Source of the DNA: Mayamaea pseudoterrestris
Taxonomy: Eukaryota; Bacillariophyta; Bacillariophyceae; Sellaphorales; Sellaphoraceae
Length of the DNA: 64,000 nucleotides
NCBI GenBank assembly: GCA_027923505.1
Contig: BROI01000012.1
Location: 910,516 to 974,515, forward strand
Direction: 5' to 3'
Within the stretch, counting starts at the first letter, position 1. Each line of letters opens with the position of its first letter. Both the position numbers and the translations under genes were made by a program. Under the pieces are notes generated by a model. That model saw nothing but the letters and a program-made list of their open reading frames with translations. It was not told the origin of the DNA and did no database searches. Below are positions 31,435 to 59,996 of the stretch, piece by piece.

Positions 31435-31739
31435 GGTGACTAGTTGGTTGGTTTGTTCTTTTGCGAGAAATGAGATTGATGGACGATTGGTTGGTGGAGG
31501 CGCGCGTCGTGGCGATGTCGCACCACGAACTGCTTGTCCGTCCACCTGTTGCGATGAAGGCGCTTAGCTACATCGGTTAGCTAATATGAGTAGCTGTATA
31601 GAAGCGTTCGAAATGTGATCTTATAGTTAATAAATATTATATTTCCTGCTTAGTTCTCATTTGGTCTGTTGATACTTCTTTAATGTATTATATTGAATTC
31701 TACTTCCACCTTACCATTCACCCAGCCCTTTCTGCCGCC

Positions 31740-39056: not shown

Positions 39057-39134
39057 TAAACTCTTAAGTAATTATTGTTGCATATCCTTGTAAGTTTATA
39101 AAAGTACTTTTGTTTCCGCGGTCTTGATCAGATT

Positions 39135-40328: not shown

Positions 40329-40411
40329 GGTTGCGACGGAACGAGATGAATGAAAGCACGACGCGATCTTTCGTGGTTCTCGCGGAGTCACGAATCACGA
40401 GTCCGTGACAG

Positions 40412-40616
40412 TGACGTAGTTTTCACTGGCACTCGTTTCGTATTATTGCCTTATGACGTAGTTTTCACTGGCACTCGTTTCATATTACAGCCTTGTGACG
40501 TAGTTTTCACTGGCACTCGTTTCGTATTATAGCCTTGTGACGTAGTTTTCACTGGCACTCGTTTCGTATAATAGCCTCGTGACGCAGTTTTCACTGGCAC
40601 TCGTTTCGTAGTAGTG
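40412..40616 (+). promoter_or_regulatory. five 42-bp tandem repeats with TGACGT/TGACGC sites in a bidirectional promoter
   Basis: Copies start at 40413, 40455, 40497, 40539 and 40581, the last slightly short. Each opens with a bZIP-type site: TGACGT at 40412, 40454, 40496 and 40538, and TGACGC at 40580. The rest of the unit (GTTTTCACTGGCACTCGTTT) is nearly invariant. The array fills most of the 325 bp between the GCIP start (minus) and the proposed nuclease start (plus). TGACGT and TGACGC are the forms described as CO2/cAMP-responsive elements in diatom carbonic anhydrase promoters. The 42-bp spacing is four helical turns, which would put every site on one DNA face. Control of either gene is inference. 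Confidence 0.6.
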
Positions 40617-40653
40617 CCCCGTTGCAGATCGTCGCCAACGGCACCATGGCACC

Positions 40654-42081
40654 ATGGCGAAAGACGCTCAACTATCAGGCATTATCTTGGCGCTTGCACT
40701 AGCTTTATTTTCACGCTCGGTCTTGGACATGTGCTGGAACAAGGTGAGTTTAAAATGATTTTGATTAAGGTGAAGCCGGCTTTGATGTGTGTCGCCGGTG
40801 AAATGATGTCGAATGGAACTTCTCCGATCTTCGGTGTAAGCTACCAAGCATCATGTCTCAAGAGATTCTTTTCATTCAAGGTCATATGCATGCTGCTATC
40901 GGTAGCAGTAGTGACTGCGCTGTCAGCAAGTCGCCGAGAATTTAGCAGGTTCTTTCGAGCGACGAGAAAGGAGCAACTGCAACCACAGCAATCTGCACCC
41001 ACGACGACAGATCCAAAGGATAGCGCCAGCACCAGTGATCGCCATCGGACTACTTTGACATCGAGACATTCTCGCCGCTCCTTTCTAATTCGAGCGTCGA
41101 CTGCAACAATACTCATTGCAACATCATCCATCATTTCGCAACCTTCCGTCTACGCTGCTGCTTCATCAACGAGCATTCCCTTGCCTCGTCGCCGCGAACA
41201 AACACTCAACTTTCCCTTTTACAAATTCCAGTTTGAAACAGTCGCAGACGTTCCAAAGTCCTACTTTGTCGAGCAGCGGTCCGTGTACGCGCTCGTGGAG
41301 CGCGTCATTGACGGCGACACCATTCGCGTACGACATGTTCCATTCTTTGGCTTGACTGGTCGCAAGCCGTCACCACTCACGACGCGAGGGATTGCTGATC
41401 AAACCATGTCGATTCGTATATATGGAGTGGATTGTCCAGAGATTGCCAAGAGTGGCAAGGCGGGACAGCCGTTTGCGGAAGAAGCCAAGGAATTTACGAG
41501 CAATTTGCTGCTGCATCAAATGGTCAAGATTACGTTCTTGCGACGAGACCAGTATGGCAGAGCTGTAAGCGCAGTGGAGACTGTTTCGCCATTTTGGAAG
41601 TTTGGTCTGGGCAAGAAGGATTTGAGCATGGAGCTGGCTCGAGAAGGGTTGGCGGAACTGTACACTGGTGGCGGAGCCGAGTATTTTGTAAGTGGTACAC
41701 CGATGTATAGTTACGATGATCAGGGTTGCGAAACTTAGCCAAAGATAACGCAGTCTTGACCTCACATGAATACTGCAATATTTTCGTCTGCAGGACAAGC
41801 GAATTGTTTTGGAAAAGAAGATTGCCAAAGCGCAAGCGAAGAAGACAGGCATTTGGTCGCAAGGCAAGAAACGAACAAGCGCCGCCGACTTTAAAAGGAA
41901 TCAGGATGCTGAGCCAGTGCCCTTGGCTTCTGCCAAGAATAAAAAGACAATCAACGACAAGCGCAACAACGTGTTGCACGTCTCCAATGCTCACAACCAA
42001 CGGGCGACACCGGCTGTCGCCGATAAGCGTTCGTCGAAACTAATGGACGCTGCCGTTACTGGCTTGGAGTTTGTCAGCTAA
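40654..42081 (+). CDS. thermonuclease (SNase)-family protein with Tat-like signal
   Basis: I propose exons 40654-40743, 40881-41687 and 41794-42081 (394 aa). The last intron is clear: ...G-G-A-E-Y-F|D-K-R-I-V-L-E-K-K, GTAAGT donor, CTGCAG acceptor, 106 nt. The first exon (M-A-K-D-A-Q-L-S-G-I-I-L-A-L-A-L-A, GTGAGT donor) is tentative; translation could instead begin at the Met at 40890. The SNase fold is complete: V-E-R-V-I-D-G-D-T-I-R-V, R-I-Y-G-V-D-C-P-E-I, G-Q-P-F-A-E-E-A, D-Q-Y-G-R-A-V and L-A-R-E-G-L-A-E-L-Y. It has the catalytic Asp, Arg and Glu positions expected for Ca2+-dependent nucleases. Before the domain lies S-R-R-S-F-L-I-R, a hydrophobic stretch and V-Y-A-A, as in twin-arginine signals, with another hydrophobic segment further upstream. 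Plastid thylakoid targeting is therefore possible but unproven. Confidence 0.75.
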
Positions 42082-42179
42082 CATTGCTTTCGCGTTCTTT
42101 AATGCTAGTTTTGCACGCATACGTGCAACTCTCATTCTACGCTACGATAACAATTTCGGACCGTGTCGCATAATCTGCT

Positions 42180-43187
42180 TTATCTTAACTTGTCGTCATG
42201 TACTTTGTAGAATCTAGGATCAGTCGCATCCAAATTATTGTCTGCGGCCTTTGTTTGCGTAACAGAGTCGTACATCTGGTTTGGCACTTGACTCAGAGTC
42301 GCTGCCATGGCGCTCATATTGGGTAAGCTTGACGAAAATGCACTACTCGCTGTCATTGCCGTGGGTAGCAACAAACTCGCCAACCCAGACGCAAACGCTG
42401 ACGCGACCGCCGATGTCACATACAGAGTGTCCGTCGATGCCAGAGGACCGAGTGTATTCTGCAGTGTTGCGCCAGCTTGGTTCCATTCTTGGATGCGTTG
42501 CTTTAAAAACGTCCACGTATCAGTGTAGTCGATGGATGTGTCTGTCAGCATGTGCAGCTCGGTTGCCATGTAGATACCTCCCAGAGCGAGCTTGGCAAAT
42601 TCATTGCCGCTTATAACTTGTTGCGTCGTGGCATCTTTGCTGTAAGCATATTGGTAAATCAATTCAACGAGTCGTTTCAGTTGCTGCTGCGTGTGCATGA
42701 CATTCTCGGGCGACGCGCCCAGCGCCATGGCCTGATGCCAGGTTTGCGACTCCATAAACTCGCGCTGGTAGCCAAGTCGCAGCTGAATGGCACGTGTCAT
42801 TCGATCCGATGATGTTTCTGACGGATCAGTGACTTGTCCTTGCAAGTCATGTTCGAGCCGGCGATGGAACGTATCCATGGCATGACAAACCAAGTCTCTT
42901 GGCGTCGCAAGGCCAGCCATGGAAAAAGAAAGGTTTGCTCGTTGTTGTCGTTGCTCCATGATAGCCTGTATGATCGCCTCCTGTGTCCATCCATGCTGAT
43001 GCACGTGATGAAGCGAGCGTTCCAATAGCTGCTGTTTCATTGCGGCCACAGATGGCGGTTTTGGCGTCGGCGATGGTCCCTCGGCGCTAGTTGACGATGA
43101 AGCCAGCCGGTTAGTGACATTTTTCGCCCTGCAATCATTAAATCTTCGCACGATGACAGCCCTGTGAATAGTATTTCTAATGGACAT
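42180..43187 (-). CDS. COQ9: ubiquinone biosynthesis protein COQ9
   Basis: 335 aa from the Met at 43187. This start gives a basic, Ser/Arg-rich mitochondrial presequence (M-S-I-R-N-T-I-H-R-A-V-I-V-R-R-F); the frame continues upstream without likeness. Family marks are H-G-W-T-Q-E-A-I, L-V-C-H-A-M-D, I-Q-L-R-L-G-Y with W-H-Q-A-M-A-L-G-A-S-P-E-N, L-V-E-L-I-Y-Q-Y-A, and near the C-terminal part L-G-G-I-Y-M-A-T-E-L-H-M-L-T-D-T-S followed by T-W-T-F-L-K-Q-R-I. COQ9 is a TetR-like lipid-binding protein that delivers substrate to the COQ7 hydroxylase in the mitochondrial CoQ synthome. The last 80 residues form an Ala/Ser-rich extension with a hydrophobic run not usual for the family. Its stop is 98 bp from that of the convergent nuclease gene. 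Confidence 0.85.
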   Translation of the reverse strand: MSIRNTIHRAVIVRRFNDCRAKNVTNRLASSSTSAEGPSPTPKPPSVAAMKQQLLERSLHHVHQHGWTQEAIIQAIMEQRQQRANLSFSMAGLATPRDLVCHAMDTFHRRLEHDLQGQVTDPSETSSDRMTRAIQLRLGYQREFMESQTWHQAMALGASPENVMHTQQQLKRLVELIYQYAYSKDATTQQVISGNEFAKLALGGIYMATELHMLTDTSIDYTDTWTFLKQRIQEWNQAGATLQNTLGPLASTDTLYVTSAVASAFASGLASLLLPTAMTASSAFSSSLPNMSAMAATLSQVPNQMYDSVTQTKAADNNLDATDPRFYKVHDDKLR

Positions 43188-44239
43188 GCTGGGAGATGGC
43201 GAAGGGCGAAGGAACTGTGAGGCGGTCATCAGTTGTTGTATCCCTAGTATCAGGTGCATGAAAGAGCGAAAACACCAATAGAGCAAACGTTTGTAAACAT
43301 GCATTGCAATCATCGCTGGCGATGCTGGCGACAAACAATCGGACTATCATTGTTTGGTAGTCGCTCTCTCGCTTCACCAGATTCTCAGCTCGGCGCAGAA
43401 CGTGCATTTGCCAACGTACTTGTAATTCGCGCCAACAAAAAGAAAAAATATGCAAACAAAAGACTTTGCTCTGTCACTGTCTTTGCTAGAGATCGATTCT
43501 TTTATTTGCAGCCAGAAAAGCGGATCCGAAGGATAATACAGTCGTTGTATTGCACGCAACAAACAATGGTGAGAAAAGAAAAGCATCCGTCGCGAAACGA
43601 AAGAGACGCACCGGTATTAGTAGTCAAATCACATTTCAGTCGCGCTTGCGAAAACCTTTTCTTCGCAGAGAAGCTTGTAGTGAAATACTATATCCCATTA
43701 TTGTGGTAGGATCTATCCGAACATGCTTCACGACATTAATTGAGGCTCTGCCATTGCGACATGGATGACTTGCTTTTCGCGTGCGTCTGCGCAATGACCG
43801 TTGACCTCTGCGACATCTGCTACTTTGCACGAAGCATTAAGTCGTTTGCAAGTGTGATGAAGTCAGTTACTGTACCTTGAATCCGTAAAGCTACAATTGT
43901 ACAATGGTACATAGTGTTTGCGCGCGCGAAGCGCGCGAATTCCACTGCTTTCTTTCAAAATCATTGATCCTACCACCTCCCCGCTCCGCGAATGTGTTTC
44001 CCATCCAAAGAGTTAAGTACAATCAATAAAGAATCAGTTTACAAGCCCCAACTTTGCAAGCCCTGCATTTGGATTAGCAGGGATTCAGATGAAATGGCAA
44101 GTCTCCAGTCTGCAGGCTGAGAATTGCAAATCCACAATCTTTACAGTCACTGACAGCCAAGAGCCATTGTTTAATAGACAGTGCTAAACGTGATTTCTAT
44201 TAGAAACTAACACAGTATCCATTGTACCAAGATAATACC
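43188..44239. other. non-genic stretch between COQ9 and the satellite block
   Basis: About 1 kb with no convincing gene. A plus-strand frame around 43550-43768 is basic (K-R-K-A-S-V-A-K-R-K-R-R) but has no family likeness. A GC-rich hairpin sits at 43921-43937. From about 44040 the sequence begins to look like decayed satellite C. Confidence 0.4.
43921..43937. other. GC-rich perfect hairpin
   Basis: Arms CGCGCGC and GCGCGCG with a GAA loop, in an otherwise AT-leaning spacer. No adjacent T-run or gene end explains it. Confidence 0.4.
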
Positions 44240-44364
44240 ATTTGCATGTCACAGCATCTGCAGACTTAGACTGGTGACAAGTTATCACCAATCACATTGC
44301 AGTCTACTGAGACACCAACCAGGCATACCATCTTGTAAGGCAGACTGGATAATGATTTTGAATT
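44240..44364 (+). repeat. satellite C, single flanking copy (left edge)
   Basis: This segment matches the right-edge array, sharing GACTGGTGACAAG, ATCACCAATCACATTGCAG and CTACTGAGACACCAACCAGG. The dyad GGTGACAA-G-TTATCACC is centred on 44281, with one mismatch. It marks the left border of the compound satellite. Confidence 0.75.
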
Positions 44365-47300
44365 ATTGACAAAGTTAAAGGTTAAGATGTTCCAAATTGG
44401 AAGCCAGTCAACCAGTGGTTATGCAAAAATATAGCAAGCAGGGTCCTCCAAGTGGTTCGACCAGGTCAAAGTTTCAGATGGGATTATTATAGTGATGCAA
44501 CCTGGCCAGCAAGAATCTGAACCTGCTACTGCAATCCGCAGAAGGTGCTTGACAAGGTCCAACGCTTAAAATATTGAAAACAGCAGCTTTTCTGGCAGTG
44601 GCTGTGGTGTGACTGAGACTGAAACAAGTTGGGTATTCCATTTGCCTAACACAGCAAAGTTTCAGTTGGTAATTATGTAATGATCCAACCTTGCTAGCAT
44701 GATTCTGAGCATGCCATGGCAATCAGGATAAGATGTGTGACAAAGTAAAAGGTTGCAATGTTCCAAATTGGAAGCCAGTCAGCCAGTGGTTATGCACAAA
44801 TATAGCAAGCAGGGTCATCCAAGTGGTTCCACCAGGTCAAAGTTTCAGATGGGATTTGTATAGTGATGCAACCTGGCCAGCAAGAATCTGAACCTGCTAC
44901 TGCAATCCGCAGAAGGTGCTTGACAAGGTCCAAGGCTTGGTATATTGAAAACAGCAGCTATTCTGGCAGTGGCTGGGGTGTGACTGAGACTGAAACAAGT
45001 TGGGTGTTCCATGTGCCAAACACAGCAAAGTTTCAGTTGGTAATTATGTAATGATCCAACCTTGCTAGCATGATTCTGAGCATGCCATGGCAATCAGGAT
45101 AAGATGTTTGACAAAGTCAAAGGTTGCAATGTTCCAAATTGGAAGCCAGTCAGCCAGTGGTTATGCACAAATATAGCAAGCAGGGTCATCCAAGTGGTTC
45201 CACCAGGTCAAAGTTTCAGATGGGATTTGTATAGTGATGCAACCTGGCCAGCAAGAATCTGAACCTGCTACTGCAATCCGCAGAAGGTGCTTGACAAGGT
45301 CCAAGGCTTGGAATATTGAAAACAGCAGCTATTCTGGCAGTGGCTGTGGTGTGACTGAGACTGAAACAAGTAGGGTGTTCCATGTGCCAAACACAGCAAA
45401 GTTGCAGTTGGCATTTACGTGATGATCCAACCTTGCTAGCATGATCCTGAGCATGCCATGGCAATCAGGATAAGATGTTTGACAAGTCAAAGGTTGAGAT
45501 GTTCCAATTTGGAAGCTAGTCAGCCAGTGGTTATGCGTGAATATAGCAAGTAGGTTCCTCCAAGTGGTTCCACCAGGTCAAAATTTCAGATGGGATTTGT
45601 ATAGTGATGCAACCGGGCCAGCAAGAATCTGAACCTGCTACTGCAATTTTCAGAAGGTGCTTGACAAGGTCCAAGGCTTGGAACGTTGAAAACAGCAGCA
45701 ATTCTGGCAGTGGCTGTGGTGTGACTGAGACTGAAGCAAGTTGGGTGTTCCATGTGCCAAACACAGCAAAGTTTCAGTTGGGATTTATGTGATGATCCAA
45801 CCTTGCTAAAATCATTCTGAGCATGCCATGGCAATCAGGAAAATAAGATGTTTGAAAAAGTAAAAGGTTGCAATGTTCCAATTTGGAAGCCAGTCAGCCA
45901 GTGGTTATGCGTGAATAAAGCAAGTAGGTTCCTCCAAGTGGTTCCACCAGGTCAAAGTTTCAGATGGGATTTGTATAGTGATGCAACCTGGCCAGCAAGA
46001 ATCTGAACCTGCTACTGCAATCCGCAAAAGGTGCTTGACAAGGTCCAAGGCTTGGAATATTGAAAATGGCAGCTGTTCTGGCAGTGGCTGTTGTGTGACT
46101 GAGACTGAAACAAGTTGGGTGTTCCATGTGCCAAACGCAGCAAAGTTTCAGTTGGGATTTATGTGATGATCCGACCTTGCTAACAAGATTCTGAGCATGC
46201 CATGGCAATCAGGATAAGATGTTTGACAAAGTCAAAGGTTGAGATGTTCCAATATGGAAGCCAGTCAGCCAGTGGTTATGCACGAATATAGCAAGCAGGG
46301 TCCTCCAAGTGGTTCCACCAGGTCAAAGTTTCAGATGGGATTTGTATAGTGATGCAACCTGGCCACCAAGAGTCTGAACCTGCTACTGCAATCCGCAGAA
46401 GGTGCTTGACAAGGTCAAAGGCTTGGAACATTGAAAACAGCAGCTTTTCTGGCAGTGGCTGTGATGTGACTGAGACTCAAACAAGTAGGGTGTTCCATGT
46501 GCCAAACACAGCAAAGTTTCAGTTGGGATTTATGTAATGATCCAACCTTGCTAGCATGATTCTGAGCATGCCATGGCAATCAGGATAAGATGTTTGACAA
46601 AGTCAAAGGTTGAGATGTTCCAATTTGGAAGCTAGTCAGCCAGTGGTTATGCGTGAATATAGCAAATAGGTTCCTCCAAGTAGTTTCACCACATCAATGT
46701 TTCAGATGGTATTTGTATAGTGATGCAACCTGGCCACCAAGAGTCTGAACCTGCTACTGCAATCCGCAGAAGGTGCTTGACAAGGTCAAAGGCTTGGAAC
46801 ATTGAAAACAGCAGCTTTTCTGGCAGTGGCTGTGGTGTGACTGAGACTGAAACAAGTTAGGTGTTCCATTTGCCTAACACAGCAAAGTTTCAGTTGGGAT
46901 TTATGGAATGATCCAACCTTGCTAGCATGATTCTGAGCATGCCATGGCAATCAGGATAAGATGTTTGAAAAAGTCAAAGGTTGCAATGTTCCAAATTGGA
47001 AGCCAGTCAGCCAGTGGTTATGCAAGAATATAGCAAGCAGGGTCCTCCAAGTAATTCCACCAGATCAAAGTTTCAGATGGGATTTGTATAGTGATGCAGC
47101 CTGGCCAGCAAGAATCTGAACCTGCTACTGCAATCCGCAGAAGGTGCTTGACAAGGTCCAAGGCTTGGAACTTTGAAAACATCAGCTATTCAGGCAGTGG
47201 CTGGGGTGTGACTGAGACTGAAACAAGTTGGGTGTTCCATGTGCCAAACAGCAAAGTTGCAGTTGGGATTTATGTGATGATCCAACCTTGCTAGCATGAT

Positions 47301-48462
47301 TCTGAGCATGCCATGGCAATCAGGATAGGATGTTTGACAAAGTCAAAGGTTGAGATGTTCCAATATGGAAGCCCGTCAGCCAGTGGTTTTGCGTGAAAAT
47401 AGCAAGTAGGGTCCTCCAAGTTATTTCACCACCTCAAAGATTCAGATGGGATTTGTATAGTGATGCCACCTGGCCAGCAAGAATCTGAACCTGCTACTGC
47501 AATTGGCAGAAGATGCTTGACAAGATCAAAGGCTTGGAACTTCGAAAACAGCAGCTATTCTGGCAGTGGCTGTGGTGTGACTGAGACTGAAACAAGTTGG
47601 GTGTTCCATGTGCCAAACACAGCAAAGTTGCAGTTGGGATTTATGTAATGATCCGACCTTGCTAGCATGATTCTGAGCATGCCATGGCAATCAGGAGAAG
47701 ATATGGAAGCCAGTCAGCCAGTGGTTATGTGTGAATAAAGCAAGTAGGTTCCTCCAAGTGGTTCCACCAGGTCAAAGTTTCAGATGGGATTTGTATAGTG
47801 ATGCAACCTGGCCAGCAAGAATCTGAACCTGCTACTGCAATCCGCAGAAGGTGCTTGACAAGGGCAAAGGCTTGGAACCTTAAAAACAGCAGCTTTTCTG
47901 TTAGTGGCTGTGGTGTGACTGAGACTGAAACAAGGTGGGTGTTCCATGTGCCAAACACAACAAAGTTTCAGTTGGTAATAATGTAATGATGCAACCTTGC
48001 TAGCATGATTCTGAGCATGCCATGGCAATCAGAATAAGATGTTTGACAAAGTCAAAGGTTGAGATGTTCCAATATGAAAGCCAGTCAGCCAGTGGTTATG
48101 CGTGAATAAAGCAAGTAGGTTCCTCCAAGTGGTTTTACCAGGTCAAAGTTTCAGATTTGTATAGTGATGCAACCTGGCCAGCAAGAATCTGAACCTGCTA
48201 CTGCAATCCACAGAAGGTGCTTGACAAGGTCCAAGGCTTGGAACTTTGAAAACAGAAGCAATTCTGGCAGTGGCTGTGGTGTGACTGAGACTGAAACAAG
48301 TAGGGTGTTCCATGAGCCAAACACCGCAAAGTTTTTGTTGGGATTTATGTGATGATCCAACCATGCTAGCATGATTCTGAGCATGCCATGGCAATCAGGA
48401 TAAGATGTTTGACAAAGTCAAAGGTTGCAATGTTCCAATTTGGGGCCATGGCAATCAGGATA
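44365..48462 (+). repeat. satellite A, block 1: about 11 tandem units of 371 bp
   Basis: Units repeat head to tail with GTGATGCAACCTGGCC-type anchors at about 44493, 44863, 45234, 45604, 45978, 46349, 46720, 47091, 47460, 47798 and 48164. One unit is shortened to 338 bp by a deletion at 47695-47700. Each unit consists of two related halves of about 185 bp, for example AAGTTTCAGATGGGATTTG against AAGTTTCAGTTGGGATTTA, and GCTTGACAAGGTCCAAGG against GTTTGACAAAGTCAAAGG. Short frames open on both strands in every unit, but they are repeated copies of satellite sequence and not credible genes. Confidence 0.92.
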
Positions 48463-51400
48463 GGTGCGACTGACCAACTTATGGTCCATCATTGACAACA
48501 AACATGATTTGAAAGAAATTGGAGGGCTCAGTGGGCAATGCTGTGCGCAGTCTCAGGGCGTGGTGATGGCTTCCACACCCAAATAGACAAGTCTATGAGT
48601 CCCTTTCATCATTCAAGTCCATATTGATTGTATTATGGGGTCTGCAGACCATTTTGGAAGTCTCACTTGCCACTTGACGTGCACCGCTAGCAGATCCGAC
48701 AAGTTGTTGGATCTGCCCAGTCTCACCATGGCATACGTGGTGATGGATGCTGAGGTGCAACTGACCAACTTATGGCCCATCATTGACAACAAACATGATT
48801 TGAAAGAAATTGGAGGGCTCAGCAGGCAATGCTGATGATCCCTGCAGCCAAAATGGGAGCAGGGCTGGCACATTCAACCATTGGTTGAACATGCGGAGTC
48901 TCAGGGCATGGCGATGGCTTCCACACCCAAATGGACAAGTCTATGAGTCCCTTGTATTGTTCAAGTTCATAATGGTTGTATTATGGGGTCTGCAGGCCAT
49001 TTTGGGAGTCTCACTTGCCACATGAGGTGCACCGCTAGCAGATCCAACAAGTTGTTGGATCTGCTCTGTCTCACCGTGGCATACATGGTGATGGATGCTG
49101 AGGTGCAACCAACCAACTTATGGCCCATCATTGACAACAAACATGATTTGAAATAAATTGGAGGGCTTAACTGGCAATGCTGATGATCCCTGCAGCCAAA
49201 ATGGGAGCAGGGCTGGCACATTCAACCATTGGTTGAACATGCGGAGTCTCAGGGCATGGCGATGGCTTCCACACCCAAATGGACAAGTCTATGAGTCCCT
49301 TGTATTGTTCAAGTTCATATTGGTTGTATTATGGGGTCTGCAGGCCATTTTGGGAGTCTCACTTGCCACATGAGGTGCACCGCTAGCAGATCCAACAAGT
49401 TGTTGGATCTGCTCTGTCTCACCGTGGCATACATGGTGATGGATGCTGAGGTGCAACTGACCAACTTATGGCCCATCATTGACAACAAACATGATTTGAA
49501 ATAAATTGGAGGGCTTAACGGGCAATGCTGATGATCCCTGCAGACAAAATGGGAGCAGGGCTGTGTTGATATGGTGATTCAGTCGACGGTCAACTGAAGG
49601 GCTCGGTGGTTACTACTTGCAAGTAACTAGAAAACAAAGAAGGAATGCTTTGTTTGGTAACTGTGAGTGTTTATTGTTACTGCTAAAATGTACTGCCTTT
49701 GCAGGCCGAGCATCGCCGAGGTGCAGGCTTGCTTGGGCCCTGTTAAGTGTGATAGACAGTGAACTTGCCATCTTTTGGGTAATTAGGGTGCTTTGACCTT
49801 TGTAGCCATTATTAACTGGTGATAGAACAAATAGTTAGAGAGTAGGTCAGTTGGATGCTTCGCCATCCCCTTGCCAATGGCGAGGCCTGCCTCGCCATTG
49901 TCATCCTGTGGCGAGGCTGGTTTGAGGTGACCGAACCGAATCCCGCCTGATCCGTCGATGTTGCATGGACATCCGCCTATGTCGCATAGACATCCAACAG
50001 GCTGGCACATTCAACCATTGGTTGAATGTGCAGAGTCTCAGGGCATAGTGATGGCTTCCACGCCCAAATGGACAAGTCTATGAGTCCCATTCATTCTTCA
50101 ACTCCATATTGATTGTATTATGGGGCCTGCAGACCATTTTGGAAGTCTCACTTGCCACTTGAGGTGCACCGCTAGCAGATCCAACATGTTGTTGGATCTG
50201 CTCAGTCTCACTGGGGAGTACATGGTGATGGATGCTGAGGTGCAACTGACCAACTTATGGCCCATCATTGAAAACAAACATGATTTGAAATAAATTGGAG
50301 GGCTCAGCGGGCAATGCTGATGATCCCTGCAGCCAAAAAGGGAGCAGGGCTGGCACGTTCAACCATTGGTTGAATGTGCGCAGCCTCAGGGCAAAGTGAT
50401 GGCTTCAACTCCCAAATGGACAAGTCTATGAGTCCCAATTATTGCTCAAGTCCTAATTGGTTGTATTATGGGGGCCTGCAGGCCATTTTGGAAGTCTCAT
50501 TTGCCACTTGAGGTGCACCGCTAGCAGATCCAACAAGTTGTTGGATCTGATCAGTTTCACCGTGGCATCTATGGTGATGAATGCTGAAATGCAGCTGACC
50601 AACTTATGGCCCATCATTGACAACACACATGATTTGAAAGAAATTGGAGGGCTCAGCTGGCAATGCTGATGATCCCTGCAGCCAAAAAGGGAGCATTGGT
50701 TGAATGTGCGCAGTCTCAGGGCATGGTGATGGCTTCCACACCCAAATGGAAAGGTATATGAGTCCCATTCATTGTTCAAGTCCATATTGATTGTATTATG
50801 GGGTCTGTAGGCCATTTTGGAAGTCTCAGTTGCCATTTGAGGTTCACCGCTAGCAGATCCAACAAGTTCTTGGATCTGCTCTGTCTCACCGTGGCATACA
50901 TGGTGATGGATGCTGAGGTGCAACTGACCAAATTTTGGCCCAGCATTGACAACAAACGTGATTTGAAAGAAATGGGAGGGCTCAGCGGGCAATGGTGATG
51001 ATCCCTGCAGCCAAAATGGTAGCATGGCTGGCACATTCAACAAATGGTTGAATGTGCGGAGTCTCAGGGCATAGTGATGGCTTCCATGCCCAAATGGACA
51101 AGTCTATGAGTCCCAATTATTGCTCAAGTCCATATCGATTGTATTATGAGGTCTGCAGGCCATTTTGGAAGTCTCACTTGCCACTTGAGGTGCACCACTA
51201 GCAGATCCAACAAGTTGTTGGATCTGCTCAATCTCACTGGGGAGTACTTGGTGATGGATGCTGAGGTGCAACTGACCAACTTATGGCCCATCATTGACAA
51301 CAAACATGATTTGAAAAGAATAGGAGGGCTCAGTGGGCAATGCTGATGATTCCTGCAGCCAAAAAGGAAGCAGGGCTGGCACATTCAACCATTGGTTGAA

Positions 51401-52200
51401 TGTGCGGAGTCTCAAGGCATGGTGATGGCTTCCACACCCAAATGAACAAGTCTATGAGTCCCATTCATTGTTCAAGTCCATATTGATTGTATTATGGGGT
51501 CTGTAGGCCATTTTGGAAGTCTCAGTTGCCATTTGAGGTTCACCGCTAGCAGATCCAACAAGTTCTTGGATCTGCTCTGTTTCACCGTGGCATACATGGT
51601 GATGGATGCTGAGGTGCAACTGACCAAATTTTGGCCCAGCATTGACAACAAATATGATTTGAAAGAAATGGGAGGGCTCAGCGGGCAATGGTGATGATCC
51701 CTGCAGCCAAAAAGGGTAGCAGGGCTGGCACATTCAACCAATGGTTGAATGTGCGGAGTCGCAGTGCATAGTGATGGCTTCCACGCCCAAATGAACAAGT
51801 CTATGAGTCCCATTCATTGATCAAGTCCATATTGGTTGTATTATGGGGTCTGCAGGCTATTTTGGAAGTCTCACTTGCCACTTGAGGTGCACCACTAGAA
51901 GATCCAACAAGTTGTTGGATCTGCTCTGTCTCACCGTGGCGTACATGGCAATGAATGCTGAGGTGCAACTGACCAACTTATGGCCCATCATGGTCAACAC
52001 ACATAAATTGAAAAGGATCAGAGGGCTCATCGGGCATTGCTGATGATCCCTGCAGCCAAAATGGGAGCAGTGCTGGCACATTCAACCATTTGTTGAATGT
52101 GCACAGTCTCAGGGCATGGTGATGGCTTCCACACCTAAATGGAGAAGTCTATGAGTCCCATTCATTGTTCAAGTCCATATTGATTGTATCATGGGGTCTG
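48463..52200 (+). repeat. satellite B: about 9.5 tandem units of 348 bp, interrupted by a solo LTR
   Basis: TTATGGGGTCTGCAG-type anchors lie at about 48632, 48980, 49328, 50118, 50465, 50795, 51143, 51491, 51840 and 52188. Spacing is 348 bp apart from one 330-bp unit and the LTR insertion. Each unit has two odd-centred dyads: arms AGCAGATCCAACAA/TTGTTGGATCTGCT around a G (51200-51228) and GCACATTCAACCA/TGGTTGAATGTGC around a T (51379-51405). They alternate every 178 and 170 bp. The two half-units are themselves distantly alike. The entry junction (48445-48465) contains a stray piece of satellite A. Confidence 0.92.
49559..50004. mobile_element. solo LTR (49564-49999) with 5-bp target-site duplication
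   Basis: A 436-bp insertion begins TGTTGATATGG and ends CATCCAACA, so it has the TG...CA termini of a long terminal repeat with a short inverted TGTTG/CAACA. It is flanked by the direct repeat GGCTG at 49559-49563 and 50000-50004; removing the insert restores an uninterrupted satellite B unit. There is no internal coding region, so this is a solo LTR left by recombination. Ty1/copia-like elements are the common LTR type in diatoms and typically make 5-bp duplications. The superfamily is inferred. Confidence 0.85.
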
Positions 52201-55200
52201 CTTGATATAAAGCAAGTAGGTTCCTCCAAGTGGTTCCACCACATCAATGTTCCAGATGGGATTTGTATAGTGATACAACCTGGCCACCAAGATTCTGAAC
52301 CTCCTACTGCAATCCGCAGAAGGTGCTTGCCAAGGTCAAAGGCTTGGAACATTGAAAACAGCAGCTATTCTGGCAGTGGCTGTGGTGTGACTGAGACTGA
52401 AACAAGTTGGGTGTTCCATGTGCCAAACACAGCAAAGTTTCAGTTGGGATTTATGTGATGATCCAACCTTGCTAGCATGATTCTGAGCATGCCATGGCAA
52501 TCAGGATAAGATGTTTGACAAAGTCAAAGGTTGCGATGTTCCAATTTGGAAGCCAGTCAGTCAGTGGTTATGCGTGAATATAGCAAGTAGATTCCTCCAA
52601 GTGGTTCCACCAGGTCAAAATTTCAGATGGGATTTGTATAGTGATGCAACCGGGCCAGCAAGAATCTGAACCTGCTACTGCAATCCGCAGAAGGTGCTTG
52701 ACAAGGGCAAAGGCTTGGAACCTTAAAAACAGCAGCTATTCTGGCAGTGGCTGTGGTGTGACTGAGACTGAAACAAGTAGGGTGTTCCATGTGCCAAACA
52801 CAGCAAAGTTGCAGTTGGGATTTATGTAATGATCCAACCTTGCTAGCATGATTCTGAGCATGCCATGGCAATCAGGATAAGATGTTTGACAAAGTCAAAG
52901 GTTGAGATGTTCTAATATGGAAGCCAGTCAGCCAATGGTTATGCACGAATATAGCAAGCAGGGTTCTCCAAGTGGTTCCACCTCGTCAATGTTTCAGATG
53001 GGATCTGCATAGTGATGCAACCTGGCCACCAAGAGTCTGAACCTGCTACTGCAATCCGCAGAAGGTGCTTGACAAGGTCCAAGGCTTGGTATATTGAAAA
53101 CAGCAGCAATTCTGGCAGTGGCTGTGGTGTGACTGAGACTGAAACAAGTTGGGTGTTCCATGTGCCAAACACAGCAAAGTTGCAGTTGGGATTTATGTAA
53201 TGATCCGACCTTGCTAGCATGATTCTGAGCATGCCATGGCAATCAGGAGAAGATATGGAAGCCAGTCAGCCAGTGGTTATGCGTGAATATAGCAAGTAGG
53301 TTCCTCCAAGTGGTTCCACCAGGTCAAAATTTCAGATGGGATTTGTATAGTGATGCAACCGGGCCAGCAAGAATCTGAACCTGCTACTGCAATTTTCAGA
53401 AGGTGCTTGACAAGGTCCAAGGCTTGGAACGTTGAAAACAGCAGCTATTCTGGCAGTGGCTGTGGTGTGACTGAGACTGAAACAAGTAGCGTGTTCCATG
53501 TGCCAAACAGCAAGTTGCAGTTGGGATTTATGTGATGATCCAACCTTGCTAGCATGATTCTGAGCATGCCATGGCAATCAGGATAAGATGTTTGACAAAG
53601 TCAAAGGTTGAGATGTTCTAATATGGAAGCCAGTCAGCCAATGGTTATGCACGAATATAGCAAGCAGGGTCCTCCAAGTGGTTCCACCTCGTCAATGTTT
53701 CAGATGGGATCTGCATAGTGATGCAACCTGGCCACCAAGAGTCTGAACCTGCTACTGCAATCCGCAGAAGGTGCTTGACAAGGTCCAAGGCTTGGTATAT
53801 TGAAAACAGCAGCAATTCTGGCAGTGGCTGTGGTGTGACTGAGACTGAAACAAGTTGGGTGTTCCATGTGCCAAACACAGCAAAGTTGCAGTTGGGATTT
53901 ATGTAATGATCCAACCATGCTAGCTTGATTCTGAGCATGCCATGGCAATCAGGAGAAGATATGGAAGCCAGTCAGCCAGTGGTTATGCATGAATATAGCA
54001 AGTAGGTTCCTCCAAGTGGTTCCACCACATCAATGTTTCAGATGGGATTTGTATAGTGATGCAACCTGGCCACCAAGATTCTGAACCTGCTACTGCAGAA
54101 GGTGCTTGACAAGGTCCAAGGCTTGGAATATTGAAAACAGCAGCTATTCTGGCAGTGGCTGTGGTGTGACTGAGACTGAAACAAGTAGGGTGTTCCATGT
54201 GCCAAACACAGCAAAGTTGCAGTTGGCATTTACGTGATGATCCAACCTTGCTAGCATGATCCTGAGCATGCCATGGCAATCAGGATAAGATGTTTGACAA
54301 GTCAAAGGTTGAGATGTTCCAATTTGGAAGCTAGTCAGCCAGTGGTTATGCGTGAATATAGCAAGTAGGTTCCTCCAAGTGGTTCCACCTAGACAATGTT
54401 ACAGATGGGATTTGTATAGTGATGCAACCTGGCCAACAAGAATCTGAACCTGCTACTGCAATCCACAGAAGGTGCTTCACAAGGTCCAAGGCTTGGAACT
54501 TTGAAAACAGCAGCAATTCTGGCAGTGGCTGTGGTGTGACTGAGACTGAAGCAAGTTGGGTGTTCCATGTGCCAAACACAGCAAAGTTTCAGTTGGGATT
54601 TATGGAATGATCCAACCTTGCTAGCATGATTCTGAGCATGCCATGGCAATCAGGATAAGATGTTTGACAAAGTAAAAGGTTGCAATGTTCCAATTTGGAA
54701 GCCAGTCAGCCAGTGGTTATGCGTGAATAAAGCAAGTAGGTTCCTCCAAGTGGTTCCACCAGGTCAAAGTTTCAGATGGGATTTGTATAGTGATGCAACC
54801 TGGCCAGCAAGAATCTGAACCTGCTACTGCAATCCGCAGAAGGTGCTTGACAAGGGCAAAGGCTTGGAACCTTAAAAACAGCAGCTATTCTGGCAGTGGC
54901 TGTGGTGGGACTGAGACTGAAACAAGTAGGGTGTTCCATGTGCCAAACACAGCAAAGTTGCAGTTGGGATTTATGTGATGATCCAACCTTGCTAGCATGA
55001 TTCTGAGCATGCCATGGCAATCAGGATAAGATGTTTGACAAGTCAAAGATTGAGATGTTCCAATTTGGAAGCCAGTCAGCCAGTGGTTATGCACAAATAT
55101 AGCAAGCAGGTTCCTCCAAGTGGTTCCACCAGGTCAATGTTTCAGATTGGATCTTGTATAGTGATGCAACCTGGCCACCAAGAGTCTGAACCTGCTAATG

Positions 55201-57090
55201 TAATCCGCAGAAGGTGCTTCACAAGGTCCAAGGCTTGAAACTTTGAAAACAGCAGCTATTCTGGCAGTGACTGTGATGTGACTGAGACTCAAACAAGTAG
55301 GGTGTTCCATGTGCCAAACACAGAAAAGTTTCAGTTGGGATTTATGTGATGATCCAACCTTGCTAGCAAGATTTTGAGCATGCCATGGCAATCAGGATAA
55401 GATGTTTAACAAAGTCAAAGGTTGAGATGTTCCAATTTGGAAGCCAGCCAGCCAGTGGTTATGCATGAATATAGCAAGCAGGGTCCTCCAAGTGGTTCCA
55501 CCACATCAATGTTTCAGATGGGATTTGTTTAGTGATGCAACCTGGCCAGCAAGAATCTGAACCTGCTACTGCAATTTGCAGAAGGTGCTTGACAAGGTCC
55601 AAGGCTTGGAACTTTGAAAACAGCAGCTATTCTGGCAGTGGCTGGGGTGTGACTGAGACTGAAACAAGTAGGGTGTTCCATGTGCCAAACACAGCAAAGT
55701 TTCAGTTGGGATTTATGTGATGATCCAACCTTGCTAAAATCATTCTGAGCATGCCATGGCAATCAGGATAAGTTGTTTGACAAAGTCAAAGGTTGCAATG
55801 TTCCAATTTGGAAGCTAGTCAGCCAGTGGTTATGCGTGAATATAGCAAGTAGGGTCCTCCAAGTGGTTCCACCTCGTCAATGTTTCAGATTGGATCTTGT
55901 ATAGTGATGCAACCTGGCCACCAAGAGTCTGAACCTGCTACCGTAATCCGCAGAAGGTGCTTGACAAGGTCCAAGGCTTGGATCTTTGAAAACAGCAGCT
56001 ATTTTGGCAGTGACTGTGATGTGACTGAGACTCAAACAAGTAGGGTGTTCCATGTGCCAAACAGCAAGTTGCAGTTGGGATTTATGTGATGATCCAACCT
56101 TGCTAGCATAATTCTGAGCATGCCATGGCAATCAGGATAAGATGTTTTACAAAGTCAAAGGTTGAGATGTTCCAATTTGGAAGCTAGTCAGCCAGTGGTT
56201 ATGCGTGAATATGGCAATTAGGGTCCTCCAAGTGGTTCCACCTCGTCAAAGATTCAGATGGGATTTGCATACTGATGCAACCTGGCCACCAAGAATCTGA
56301 ACCTGCTACTGCAATCCACAAATAGTGCTTGATAAGGTCCAAGACCTAGAACTTTGAAAACAGCAGCTATTCTGGCAGTGGCTGTGGTGTGACTGAGACT
56401 GAAACAAGTTGGGTGTTCCATGTGCCAAACACCGCAAAGTTTCAGTTGGGATTTATGTGATGATCCAACCTTGCTAGCATGATTCTGAGCATGCCATGGC
56501 AATCAGGATAAGATGTTTGACAAAGTCAAAGGTTGCGATGTTCCAATTTGGAAGCTAGTCAGCCAGTGATTATGTGTGAATATAGCAAGTAGATTCCTCC
56601 AAGTGGTTCCACCACATCAAAAATTCAGATGGGATTTGCATACTGATGCAACCAGGCCAGTAATATTCTGAACCTGCTACTGCAATCCACAAAAGGTGCT
56701 TGACAAGGTCCAAGACCTAGAACTTTGAAAACAGCAGCTATTCTGGCAGTGGCTGTGGTGTGACTGAGACTGAAACAAGTTGGGTGTTCCATGTGCCAAA
56801 CACAGCAAAGTTTCAGTTGGGATTTATGTGATGATCCAACCTTGCTAGCATGATTCTGAGCATGCCATGGCAATCAGGATAAGATGTTTGACAAAGTCAA
56901 AGGTTGAGATGTTCCAATTTGGAAGCCAGTCAGTCAGTGGTTATGCGTGAATATAGCAAGTAGATTCCTCCAAGTGGTTCTACCGCATCAAAGTTTCAGA
57001 TGGGATTTGTATAGTGATGCAACCTGGCCAGCAATATTCTGAACCTGCTACTGAAATCCGCAGAAGGTGCTTGACAAGGTCCAAGGCTTG
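52201..57090 (+). repeat. satellite A, block 2: about 13 tandem units of 371 bp
   Basis: Same family and orientation as block 1, with anchors at about 52272, 52641, 53012, 53350, 53718, 54057, 54419, 54790, 55163, 55532, 55902, 56273, 56643 and 57014 (last unit cut). Two shortened units (about 338 bp) share the deletion seen in block 1. A two-unit higher-order repeat of 706 bp is visible: TCTAATATGG variants at 52911 and 53617 head nearly identical stretches. The last unit breaks off at CCAAGGCTTGG before satellite C. Confidence 0.92.
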
Positions 57091-57690
57091 GGTGTATACA
57101 TGGCATGATATATGGGCATGTGAATGTCAAGGCACCTGCAGGTTGAGACTGGTGACAACTTGTCACTAATCACATTGCAGTCTACTGAAACACCAGTTAG
57201 TCATAACATCTTGTAGCGCAACCTCAATAATGATGTTGGCATTATTCTTCTGGAATTTGGGTGTCTATATGGCTTGATGTATGAGCATTGCATGTCACAA
57301 CATCTGCTGGCTGAGACTGGTGACAAGTTGTCACCAATCACATTGCAGTCTACTGAGACACCAACCAGGCATAACATATTGTAGTGCACTTTGAATAAGG
57401 ATGTTGGCACCGTTCTGGTGTTTATTGGTCATGGGGATGGCTTTGAGAATGGGCTGCTGAAAGTTGCCGTTGTCATTTGCTGGGACTGGTGTGAAGTTTC
57501 ACCCATGGCATTGCTGCATTGAATGCACCGGACAATCATGACATCTTGTAGAGAAGCCTAAATTAGAATGTTGGCACGTTCTTGTTTAAGTCAGGCATAC
57601 TGTATGCTGACTCCTAGAAATCATGGCATCAGCTGTCTGAGACTGCTGGCGAGAAGCTCACACCAATACTATTCTGCTTGCATAACTACA
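57091..57690 (+). repeat. satellite C array, about 165-170 bp period (right edge)
   Basis: Four copies of decreasing quality have their dyads at 57159, 57327, about 57496 and about 57656. The best copy has GGTGACAA-G-TTGTCACC, a perfect inverted repeat around one base. CACATTGCAGTCTACTGA and GACACCA follow. Copies decay toward the MYND gene, as expected at an array edge. Confidence 0.75.
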
Positions 57691-57715
57691 ACATAATAGT
57701 TACTTCCCTTTAATT

Positions 57716-58354
57716 TTATGTATGCAGGTGCTGCATCTTTTGCAGATGTTTGCAATGAGTTTTGTGTTCCGCCCAATCTTTTGCTTGGCAGGCTACAGAG
57801 CAGTATGACGCTACGCGGCACTTGGTGCATTCCAGCATGCTTGTGACAGTCAAAGTTACTTTGCAGCCTTCTGTAACGCACATCTCCACTTCTTGTACAG
57901 AACGCGTCAAATCCATTAATAGATAGAAACAATCACAAGGGGAATGTTCCAAGTAGTACAAGAAAATGTTTCGGTGACTCGTCAGTCTTGACATTTTGAT
58001 TTGCCCTGGCTGTTGTTTCTCGTACCCATATTTTGATTCAATGAGAGAGATGAGGAAGGTCATGGCATACAGACGATCACAAACTAAATCAAGTTCGTCC
58101 GCTTTCCCGTACGACGCCTTGATCCATTTCAGTCCAGTGGCAATAATCTTGCGGCGCATAGTGTCACCAAAAATTGACCCGTACTTTGTTACGACGTCCC
58201 CAAAAGTAGCATCACTTCCATGAAGGTATACATAGCGAACAACTTCGTTCATCGCCTCTTTGTAGGGATCAGTTCCATCCGAGAGCGCTGACTCGTAGCC
58301 ATGGTGGCAGAAGGAGCTCCACGCCGGGAATGGCAACTTTGTTGCTGACTCCAT
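57716..58354 (-). CDS. MYND-type zinc finger protein
   Basis: 212 aa, single exon, Met at 58354. The first 150 residues are helical without a recognised domain. The C-terminus is a MYND finger: C-V-T-E-G-C, a 10-residue spacer, E-C-T-K-C, then R-V-A-S-Y-C-S-V-A-C-Q-A-K-D-W-A-E-H-K-T-H-C. All Cys and His ligands of the second zinc site are present; the first pair is spaced C-x4-C rather than the common C-x2-C. MYND fingers bind short proline-rich peptides and are found on many diatom proteins of unknown role. The gene begins inside the 3' end of the upstream P450 frame (86 bp overlap, different frame) and ends next to decayed satellite C. It may have arrived with the rearrangement that cut the P450. 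Confidence 0.75.
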   Translation of the reverse strand: MESATKLPFPAWSSFCHHGYESALSDGTDPYKEAMNEVVRYVYLHGSDATFGDVVTKYGSIFGDTMRRKIIATGLKWIKASYGKADELDLVCDRLYAMTFLISLIESKYGYEKQQPGQIKMSRLTSHRNIFLYYLEHSPCDCFYLLMDLTRSVQEVEMCVTEGCKVTLTVTSMLECTKCRVASYCSVACQAKDWAEHKTHCKHLQKMQHLHT

Positions 58355-59996
58355 GCTTGTGACGGGATTGGCAGAATAAGGGAAAGGTCAAAAAGCTACT
58401 ATTAGTGGATTTGCGCACTGCGGTCGTTTCGTCGGCACCCATAGGAATAAATTCGGCAGGCGTAGTTTCAGGGCTTAACCAGCGGTCCGGAACAAAGCCC
58501 TTGCGAATATCCATATTGGAACCATCCTCCTTATACGTCTTCGCGTCTAGCTGATGCGTAAGCGCCACATTGAAATCGACAAGCCAGTCCTTTGGAATCT
58601 GCTTGCCGTCCATGACAATCGTAGAAGTGGCTCGTCGCGGAATACCACCACTTATGGGCCGTATTCGCATCGTCTCCTTGACGACCGCTTCCAAGTATGG
58701 ACACTCCTTGTCAAGCGCTTCCTTGGTGAGCACTTCACCATGAACAGCTTGAACACGTCGTTGTTCCTCCACTAACCTGTTCCATGTTTCTCGATGAAGT
58801 CCAAGAAACAGCATGGCGTTGGTCAGAGTCGTCGCGGAGGTTTCACTGCCCGCCAGAATCAAAATCAAGGCATTGTCAATAATCTCTCCTTGCGACAGGG
58901 TACGCGTCGGATTTTCCTCATCCTTGGCAAACACCATGCCACTCAAGGTCGACGCGTCGGGTCCATTCGCTTTCAATTTGTCAATCTGCTGCTCCACAAG
59001 ACTCTCCAAATACTTTTTGGCCTTGAACGACGGCGTTTTTTCAACGTTCAAGCCGAGTAGCGCCCTTAGCGAAACAACGCCTCCTATCCAATCAGCCACC
59101 GCCTTGTGAAAGACTGGAACTTGTTCCGGAGTCAAGTCAAGTCCAAGGATTTGTCGCCACGCCACATCCAACGTAAAGTCCGTGCAAATGTCTTCCATGA
59201 CAATCCTATTGCTCAATGTCGAATCTTGGGCCGCTGCAAGCATCTTGGCAACACTTTCCTCCGCCGCCTGCTGCAAGGTACCGATACTTTTAGCGACTGC
59301 CGCTGGCGTAATGGCTTGTCCAATGAGTCGCCGCAAAAATTGATGCCGTCCCTTGTCTTGCTCGGATATAATGCTGGCAGCCGCTCCCAACGAAGTCGAC
59401 GACGACTGCTGGCGCGTAGCTGTGCGAATGCCATTGGGCTCGAATTCCTTGTTCAGAATCGTCTTGACATTGTCGGCGCCGGCAACCACCACGAACGGAT
59501 TGCCCAGAAAGTAAAACTTCCATAGTTTGCGAGCAGCAGCCGGCAGTTTGGAGGCTTGCTTCAAGTAAAAGGCACCCGCGCCATACTCGCGGGATCCCCA
59601 AAAGAATGGCATTCCAAAGAATGGACAACCCAAAGATCCGGGTGGAAGTGGTTGCGCATAACTTGCATCGCCCGCACTGTTTGGCCACAGCAATTGACTC
59701 CGTTGACGAAATAAGACGAACAATGTTGCGGTAACGAGCAAAAGAAGTTTGGTGGTGAGTCGAGTCGCCGCAACGTTTGCAATAGCGGTTCTGGCTAAGG
59801 CAGGTAGCATGTCGAGTCGAGTTGGAGAATATTCTTCGCGTCTACAGAGGCCTGGCGTATGCATTGGCTTGCTAGCAGTTGGAGACAATTCGCTGGCGAT
59901 ACGCGAAAGGCCTGTTGCTCGAGAAGGAGCCGACGCGAGAAACGCTTCACAGCAAAGAACTGCCGATAGCAAAAAAGCCAAGGAGAGAATCTTCAT
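58269..59996 (-). CDS. cytochrome P450 truncated before the heme-cysteine motif
   Basis: 575 aa from the Met at 59996, which places a signal peptide first (M-K-I-L-S-L-A-F-L-L-S-A-V-L-C-C-E-A-F); an earlier Met at 60026 is possible. A transmembrane helix follows near residues 80-95. The body begins P-L-P-P-G-S-L-G-C-P-F-F-G, as in CYP26/CYP120-type enzymes. It has the I-helix A-G-S-E-T-S-A-T-T, the K-helix K-E-T-M-R and F-V-P-D-R-W. The frame then reaches E-F-I-P-M-G-A, the start of the heme loop, where F-G-x-G-x-R-x-C-x-G is expected. It loses all likeness there (D-E-T-T-A-V-R-K-S-T) and runs 56 residues into the MYND gene. No exon with the Cys ligand was found downstream. Without it the product cannot be a normal P450, so this is probably a recent pseudogene or a chimera. 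Confidence 0.75.
   Translation of the reverse strand: MKILSLAFLLSAVLCCEAFLASAPSRATGLSRIASELSPTASKPMHTPGLCRREEYSPTRLDMLPALARTAIANVAATRLTTKLLLLVTATLFVLFRQRSQLLWPNSAGDASYAQPLPPGSLGCPFFGMPFFWGSREYGAGAFYLKQASKLPAAARKLWKFYFLGNPFVVVAGADNVKTILNKEFEPNGIRTATRQQSSSTSLGAAASIISEQDKGRHQFLRRLIGQAITPAAVAKSIGTLQQAAEESVAKMLAAAQDSTLSNRIVMEDICTDFTLDVAWRQILGLDLTPEQVPVFHKAVADWIGGVVSLRALLGLNVEKTPSFKAKKYLESLVEQQIDKLKANGPDASTLSGMVFAKDEENPTRTLSQGEIIDNALILILAGSETSATTLTNAMLFLGLHRETWNRLVEEQRRVQAVHGEVLTKEALDKECPYLEAVVKETMRIRPISGGIPRRATSTIVMDGKQIPKDWLVDFNVALTHQLDAKTYKEDGSNMDIRKGFVPDRWLSPETTPAEFIPMGADETTAVRKSTNSSFLTFPLFCQSRHKHGVSNKVAIPGVELLLPPWLRVSALGWN

Follow-up and report, generated by a model that had tools for sequence, protein, structure and literature searches.

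Why should three tandem repeat families stand in the symmetric order C-A-B-A-C within a few kilobases, and does such an order mark a centromere? The window, a stretch of 64,000 nucleotides from the diatom Mayamaea pseudoterrestris lying on contig C12, holds a repeated block of ~13 kb (44239-57577) made of three nested families, A (371 bp), B (348 bp) and C (169 bp), whose features are given in Table 1. We put a probability of about 0.7 on its being one of the genome's many interstitial mosaics of satellites with nucleosome-length units.

Organisation of the block

Tandem Repeats Finder (TRF) gave 371-bp arrays at 44366-47702 and onward, 52199-53254 and 53962-57091 (variants between), 348-bp arrays at 48544-49563 and 50000-52201 and a 168-bp array at 57100-57443. 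Chance is excluded for the A and B arrays, since the units in their TRF rows match at 86-95% across as many as 9 copies. BLAST searches with the consensus of each unit placed all A, B and C matches of the block on the + strand, in line with the single orientation that the first-pass annotation had given the A and B arrays. The C-A-B-A-C order described there was also recovered, and C matches are found at both borders, but the left C is a single 122-bp fragment and no array, while the right one consists of two full units and a decayed piece. The A unit is a dimer of ~186-bp halves (z 17.4) and the B unit a dimer of 174-bp halves (z 6.9), in each case with 0 of 300 shuffles as good. The arrays are thus satellite DNA in the usual sense, being long, head-to-tail and of high identity with a non-coding unit (checked for B).

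Table 1. Positions in the window of the repeat block, its palindromic cores, the duplicated segment and the adjoining genes
Feature	Position	Strand	Evidence or remark
Left border C fragment, unit positions 36-157	44239..44360	+	BLAST with C consensus, 84%
Left A array, 371-bp dimeric unit, 12 BLAST pieces	44366..48443	+	TRF, BLAST
A scrap after left A array, reaching the A/B junction	junction near 48456-48466		junction letters
B array part 1, 348-bp dimeric unit	48462..49558	+	TRF, BLAST
Solo copia LTR, 436 bp, splits B	49564..49999	-	TG...CA ends, 5-bp target duplication GGCTG
B array part 2	50000..52201	+	TRF, BLAST
Right A array, 14 BLAST pieces	52199..57091	+	TRF, BLAST
Right C remnant, two full units (84%)	57088-57418	+	TRF, BLAST
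Right C remnant, decayed piece (71% identity)	57479-57577	+	BLAST
Six ACAANTTGT dyad cores of B	48689..51925	.	48699, 49047, 49395, 50533, 51210, 51907
Two ACAANTTGT dyad cores of C	57150..57336	.	57155, 57323
Segment with second copy	29023..58435	+	C19 699.8 kb to contig end at 720.86 kb, opposite strand
COQ9 family gene (stop-to-stop frame)	42180..43343	-	Pfam
MYND zinc finger gene (stop-to-stop frame)	57716..58387	-	Pfam

The insert that splits B has the terminal dinucleotides and target duplication of a copia LTR retrotransposon, and on both C9 and C28 the same LTR occurs as a pair, spaced 6.5 kb and enclosing RVT_2 (its strand is stated relative to the reverse transcriptase of these two elements). 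By BLAST, the B array of C19 has no LTR gap, and the solo LTR is confined to the window copy.

The second copy on C19

The C19 copy was sampled at both ends, outside C19:707801-717800. The block flanks match it at 96.5%, 94.2% and 95.8%, and the last 3 kb of C19 at 93.6%. It carries the C-A-B-A-C block with all four junctions alike, and the counterpart of the left C fragment there (locus L038) covers unit positions 36-158. The BLAST pieces for A, B and A number 1, 7 and 7 on C19 against 12, 11 and 14 in the window. For the 7 A units of C19 the nearest neighbours were in C12:806-814 kb (6) and in the left A array of the window (1), with none in C19 itself or in the right A array of the window, which means that neither block is simply a copy of the other, unit by unit. 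The A/B junction is alike in the window, in C19 and at C12:806 kb, where it sits in an inverted B-A-B block; the B/A junction of the window is alike in C19.

That the C12 and C19 copies are uncollapsed haplotypes of one locus has a real claim, to which we give slightly less than even odds, and if they are allelic the second copy says less about the dispersal of the block. The homology does extend to the end of C19, and elsewhere C7:278 kb and C9:441 kb are 93% alike over 3.5 kb, beyond the matched gene domain. Yet on C12 it stops at window position 58435, 5.5 kb before the contig end, window positions 24600-25400 have no second copy, and those at 60900-61700 have an 86% copy on C1 and none on C19.

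Divergence of the units and order of nesting

Units were compared in a set of 89 A, 112 B and 215 C (A below 290 bp, B below 300 bp and C below 150 bp excluded). The A arrays on the two sides of B form almost a single population, with p-distances of 0.078 within the left array, 0.073 within the right and 0.078 between them. The nearest neighbours of the 11 left A units were 5 left, 3 right and 3 in C12:806-814 kb, and those of the 13 right units 9 right, 2 left and 2 in C12:806-814 kb. The side effect is slight (between minus within 0.0029, permutation p 0.037) and goes along with a general rise of distance with separation. B units are more distant from one another than A units (0.101 for the six to the right of the LTR, about 0.097 for all nine), and B is therefore probably an already-diverged tract, which speaks against the first-pass suggestion that B expanded inside A. 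The idea of B inside A and A inside C is supported in part, by the near-uniformity of A on the two sides; the greater divergence of B would also allow A to have grown on both sides of it. The phase of the host repeat is weakly continuous across the insert, C resuming ~18 bp on of 169 and A ~61 of 371, and chance could give both.

Identity to the consensus in the block is 71-84% for the C pieces and 94-95% for A and B, a contrast that is inflated because the A and B consensuses come from the window and the C consensus from another contig; other C arrays score 76-96% with this same consensus. Several loci show the local homogenisation known of satellites: at C12:806-814 kb 19 of 19 A units had their nearest neighbour within their own array, and at C13:275-284 kb 16 of 17 did. 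It is weaker for A in the window (5/11 and 9/13) and is 0/7 on C19. For B at C7:305-310 kb, 4 of 14 units were nearest to one of their own array and 10 to C3.

We also considered A, B and C as one superfamily with B reversed and rejected it, as whole-unit alignments were no better than those of 300 shuffles (same and opposite strand: C/A z -0.2 and -0.5; C/B z -0.8 and -0.2; A/B z 1.8, with 16 of 300 shuffles as good, and 0.0). The description of A and B as unrelated-looking accordingly stands for whole units, but does not extend to the families generally, B and C having a palindrome core in common.

In the mosaic that we favour, a C array, now a remnant, would have received an A array; a B tract would then have entered A, or A and B may have joined elsewhere and arrived together, and unequal exchange would afterwards have altered the copy numbers. 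The region exists also as the second copy or haplotype on C19, and a copia element probably inserted into B of the window copy, at a time that can only be placed by inference, and recombined to the solo LTR. The block may behave as repeat chromatin that is packed locally, in which B and C would offer a dyad every ~170 bp.

Palindromic cores in B and C

Long perfect palindromes occur in both B and C and have the core ACAANTTGT in common, namely AGCAGATCCAACAAGTTGTTGGATCTGCT in the B consensus and TGGTGACAAGTTGTCACCA in that of C. The perfect consensus palindromes span 19-29 bp (B has arms of 14 and 13, C of 9), and the longest arm of B, and likewise of C, was reached by 0 of 500 single-base shuffles. 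The six B cores lie among the nine near-full B units of the window. The most conserved 20 bases of the B unit and of the C unit fall in or almost in the palindrome core. Conservation is taken from a two-rotation scan, a first scan having been biased at the unit ends by BLAST trimming; matches below 85% of the unit were dropped, which kept 81-82 A, 97-98 B and 216-221 C, and the B scans covered the set without the diverged units of L041 and L042 (11 of 112). The second B palindrome is beyond chance and not specially conserved, 34% of the scanned windows being more so. A carries ACAAGTTG, and its palindrome was rejected as special since 77 of 500 shuffles have an arm at least as long. C and one of the two B palindromes thus have the character of dyad-bearing satellites, and A does not. 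Among five further repeats, D to H, E has the ACAANTTGT core and D, F, G and H are without it. No exact match to the C and B dyad patterns was found in viral contigs. A two-part motif (GAGACTG, then ACAANTTG) common to the three families was tried and is a lead only: its exact-word score is 0, B having another centre base on that strand, and scores of 12 or 13 turned up in 6 of 300 shuffles.

The dyads of B and C are putative protein-binding or cruciform sites, and a dyad-binding chromatin protein or a cruciform at these candidate positions is a testable lead. A bolder reading has a library of nucleosome-length satellites in which B, C, E and perhaps A keep the dyad ACAANTTGT, the rest not being alignable; a satellite-binding chromatin protein, analogous to CENP-B with its box, would bind at the dyad, and nested blocks would mark sites at which one satellite supplants another while keeping to that constraint. 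This we hold to be improbable, at about one chance in seven.

Dispersal and other readings

The block is one of many such blocks among ordinary genes, and all three families are dispersed. B is present on at least 18 of 41 contigs, with sites more than 50 kb apart on six of them (C1, C2, C3, C6, C11 and C12); its loci on C3 (0.48 and 1.49 Mb) are 1 Mb apart, and C1 has five sites and C6 three. Other mosaics are B-A-B at C12:803-816 kb, C-(E)-B-C at C1:1241-1245 kb and C-A-C-A at C13:274-284 kb. Two repeats fall outside the 169-186 bp pattern of unit lengths, one of 202 bp (2 copies, L043:3461-3857) and one of 37/111 bp (L032:2595-2954).

The proposal that such ordered satellites form a centromere or heterochromatin knob is not supported, given this distribution and the COQ9 and MYND-finger genes that adjoin the block within 1 kb, one on each side. 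In a modified form, the A and B arrays would belong to centromeres (or pericentromeres) of a regional or multi-part kind, with dyads that attract a CENP-B-like protein or favour CENH3 by forming cruciforms. This would agree with units of 169-186 bp, the dyads of B and C, copia-type LTRs at array borders and one large B array on several contigs (C2:617-637 kb, C1:2360-2377 kb, C26:226-238 kb); the multiple sites on C1, C3 and C6 and the flanking genes speak against it, and we think it unlikely, slightly more so than the dyad library. B does not have one main site per chromosome, although a contig may fall short of a whole chromosome, and the largest array could be read as the main one. Nor is the block a short low-GC stretch: its GC is 43-49% per kb against about 50% around, i.e. 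only slightly AT-richer. The centromeres described for Phaeodactylum tricornutum are short, AT-rich and non-repetitive (PMC7082073, PMC9266582), from which this repeat array differs, though the two algae are possibly of one group. One light-harvesting protein of the assembly has its best match among chains named as fucoxanthin chlorophyll proteins, which are known of diatoms, and another matches an LHCI chain.

An assembly artefact of collapsed repeats, which the first-pass annotation had named as a danger to the symmetric order, is very unlikely. Repeats did limit the assembly, as C20, C22 and C27 end inside C arrays, and C12 ends 6 kb from the block without telomere repeats; the objection is largely answered by C19, where the same order recurs with four like junctions, differing copy numbers and matching, though diverged, flanks. 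Least probable of all is that the arrays belong to genes, as coding or structured-RNA repeats. B has a length divisible by three and a 216-aa stop-free run in the window, but its consensus has stops in all six frames (2 to 8 per unit) and stop-free runs are at most 133 aa in eight other B arrays checked, which led us to reject coding repeats for B; there is no Rfam match at gathering score and no tRNA.

Comparison with known systems

The conserved palindrome core common to B and C is a new observation, and the block itself is unusually well ordered. No diatom satellite study appeared among the papers listed in the literature searched, and two diatom genome papers do not use the word 'satellite' in their main text. 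The account of Tribolium madens that we cite offers a likeness, TmSat2 'cassettes' sitting inside TmSat1, their transition zones conserved and their copy number variable, so that a minor satellite is embedded in a major one with dyads inside the units; there, however, the cassettes contain subarrays that are inverted and lie in putative (peri)centromeres of megabase size, whereas here the arrays run one way over ~13 kb among genes (PMC13081366). Among stramenopiles, the oomycete Phytophthora parasitica is reported to have PpSat2 arrays in gene-rich regions, four of them interrupted by intervening sequence, and a 182-bp tandem repeat flanking two PpSat1 arrays; the sections cited describe neither an order of three nested families nor a long palindromic core (PMC7290008). 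Dyad-rich centromere DNA in the survey of Kasinathan and Henikoff, as told in PMC9070824, likewise has inverted repeats with cruciform potential in repeated DNA, but those dyads are centromeric and short (<10 bp), and ours are 19-29 bp palindromes that are dispersed and not proven centromeric. With several nucleosome-length families, two of them with the same palindrome core, this small genome lends itself to testing how satellites turn over and nest and whether they share a binding site, and if the dyad binds a protein it would constitute a satellite-box system in a stramenopile-type alga.

Organization of the block and its second copy

The window occupies G000:C12:910516-974515 in a genome of 30.6 Mb and 41 contigs; contig C12 stops where the window does, at 974515, and no telomere repeats were found there. 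Between the COQ9 and MYND-finger genes, Tandem Repeats Finder and BLAST gave a 122-bp C fragment followed by the A, B and A arrays, then two C units and, last, a decayed C piece, with every C, A and B piece on the + strand. The halves of the A unit (about 186 bp, z 17.4) and of the B unit (174 bp, z 6.9) resemble each other, and the basic unit of A, B and C is therefore 169-186 bp. By the usual definition all three are satellite DNA.

BLAST also located a C fragment, A, B, A and C in this arrangement on the opposite strand of contig C19 (698.5-707.8 kb). The junction letters are the same in both copies at A/B, B/A, C/A and A/C, and both flanks are homologous (94-96.5%). The C-A-B-A-C order described in the first-pass annotation is thus real and unlikely to be an assembly artefact. 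A 93.6% match joins the final 3 kb of C19 to window 29023-32068; homology was sampled at the block, the flanks and the contig end, on either side of C19:707801-717800. Copy numbers, counted as BLAST pieces, are unlike (A 12, B 11, A 14 in the window versus A 1, B 7, A 7 on C19). The C12/C19 pair may have arisen by segmental duplication or may represent two haplotypes; window 24600-25400 is present once in the genome, and 60900-61700 is matched at 86% on C1. It may be noted that two light-harvesting loci (C7:278 kb and C9:441 kb), 93% identical across the full 3.5 kb fetched, are a second duplicated or haplotype pair.

Near the block, a 42-bp tandem repeat (4.8 copies, window 40411-40610, unit beginning GTGACGTAG) is placed between the starts of divergent GCIP-like and nuclease-like genes, and it accounts for 74 of the 75 matches listed for a 20-kb DNA query, on many contigs at 76-91%. 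About 295 bp at window 43698-43998 are absent from the equivalent C19 position, with a similar copy (85%) at C1:1044586; because of its end sequences, GTGGTAGGATC and GATCCTACCAC, this insert may be a small terminal-inverted-repeat transposon.

Coordinates of features in the window, on other contigs and in fetched loci (L numbers)
Feature	Position	Size or copies	Remark
COQ9 gene	42180-43343		left flank of block
Solo LTR	49564-49999	436 bp	TG start, CA end, 5-bp target duplication GGCTG
MYND-finger gene	57716-58387		right flank of block
Mosaic C-(E)-B-C	C1:1241-1245 kb		BLAST
Mosaic C-A-C-A	C13:274-284 kb		BLAST
Mixed A, B, C	C27		BLAST
D array	L035:600-1307	354 bp unit, 2 copies	beside A, B or C array
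E array	L045:944-1460 and 3374-3976	181 bp unit, about 3 copies	beside A, B or C array
F array	L040:1966-2900	178 bp unit, 4.4 copies	beside A, B or C array
G array	L046:5416-6500	176 bp unit, 6.2 copies	beside A, B or C array
H array	L031:793-1414	173 bp unit, 3.6 copies	beside A, B or C array
LTR-like copies	L031:1603-1917; L039:1393-1734; L043:6084-6412; L044:535-864 and 3836-4162; L046:1377-1705; L051:105-433	about 329 bp	TGACAC...GTGTCA

Formation of the block

Distances among A units are 0.078 left of B, 0.073 right of B and 0.078 between the sides; the slight left/right difference (permutation p 0.037) accompanies an overall increase of distance with separation (Spearman 0.19). The A units on the two sides are nearly one population. 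Identity to consensus by BLAST is 71-84% for the C pieces and 94-95% for A and B, but the A and B consensuses derive from the window itself and that of C from another contig, which inflates the contrast; C arrays elsewhere score 76-96%. On these two grounds B is located within a single A array, and the A array probably within an old C remnant. This much of the proposed nesting is supported, but a fresh expansion of B in place is improbable, since B units are more diverged from each other (0.101 for six units, about 0.097 for nine) than A units are. The A/B junction is common to the window, C19 and C12:806 kb, the last a B-A-B block in reverse orientation. Six of the seven C19 A units are closest to units at C12:806-814 kb and none to the window's right A. 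The phase continuity of the host arrays across the inserts is too loose for a proof of insertion.

Elsewhere the genome carries one short match to the solo LTR in B and five near-full copies of it (91%), and two LTR pairs (C9, C28) spaced 6.5 kb each enclose a copia reverse transcriptase. BLAST revealed no corresponding gap in the C19 B array. The simplest reading is insertion after the two copies separated; alternatively, the LTR-bearing unit may have been lost from C19 through array contraction. Copia reverse transcriptases are numerous in the genome, often in long open frames (150 scored RVT_2 matches among 305 candidates), which makes it rich in copia elements. A second LTR-like sequence lies at or beside A, B and C array edges in seven places at six loci; satellites may be its preferred target or just a place where it is tolerated.

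Dispersal of the satellites

A, B and C are each present at many genomic sites. Patterns from B gave 146 (50-mer, up to 3 mismatches) and 128 (30-mer, exact) matches, as opposed to 0 for control patterns. Among the places listed and the BLAST loci, B occurs on at least 18 of the 41 contigs (diverged on C27, 74-78%), with sites more than 50 kb apart on each of C1, C2, C3, C6, C11 and C12. The block is therefore no single-site structure, and the centromere or knob reading of the first-pass annotation is not borne out, as these satellites do not follow the one-site rule for centromeric satellites. Contigs C20, C22 and C27 terminate in C arrays. Five further repeats (D-H) have unit lengths near 173-181 bp or double; as F and G resemble each other (about 77% identity across 150 bp), the satellite families number seven or eight. 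Exceptions to this length pattern at the fetched loci are tandem repeats of 202 bp and 37/111 bp.

Palindromes in B and C

Perfect palindromes number two in the B consensus (29 and 27 bp, with centres separated by 170 and 178 bp) and one in the C consensus (19 bp). Single-base shuffles reached the longest palindrome arm in 0 of 500 trials for B, 0 of 500 for C and 77 of 500 for A. The core ACAANTTGT lies within both of the most conserved palindromes (B 29-bp, C 19-bp); 8 of its 10 window sites are inside the block, and nine near-full B units account for 6 of these 8. Among the five held-out repeats only E has the core (5 sites, two short C1 arrays); D, F, G and H lack it, as do the E pieces from L032 and L048, each of which has CAANTTGT once.

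A conservation scan across satellite units, without end bias, places the lowest divergence of the C unit at its palindrome (0.022 versus a unit mean of 0.089; none of 169 windows lower). The 29-bp B palindrome, which includes the most conserved B 20-mer, comes close to this in its own unit (0.038 versus 0.070; 0.6% of windows lower), and the 27-bp one has no special conservation (34% lower). As single strands, the B and C palindromes fold far better than shuffles do (z -8.2, -6.9 and -3.4; A -1.7), as their palindromic make-up implies. Changes on both sides number 8 in C palindrome cells against 0.47 expected under independence, and 2 and 1 in the B palindromes against 0.7 and 0.6, all counts being inflated by related units. 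Conservation of the palindrome letters themselves points at least as strongly to a putative bound protein as it does to a cruciform.
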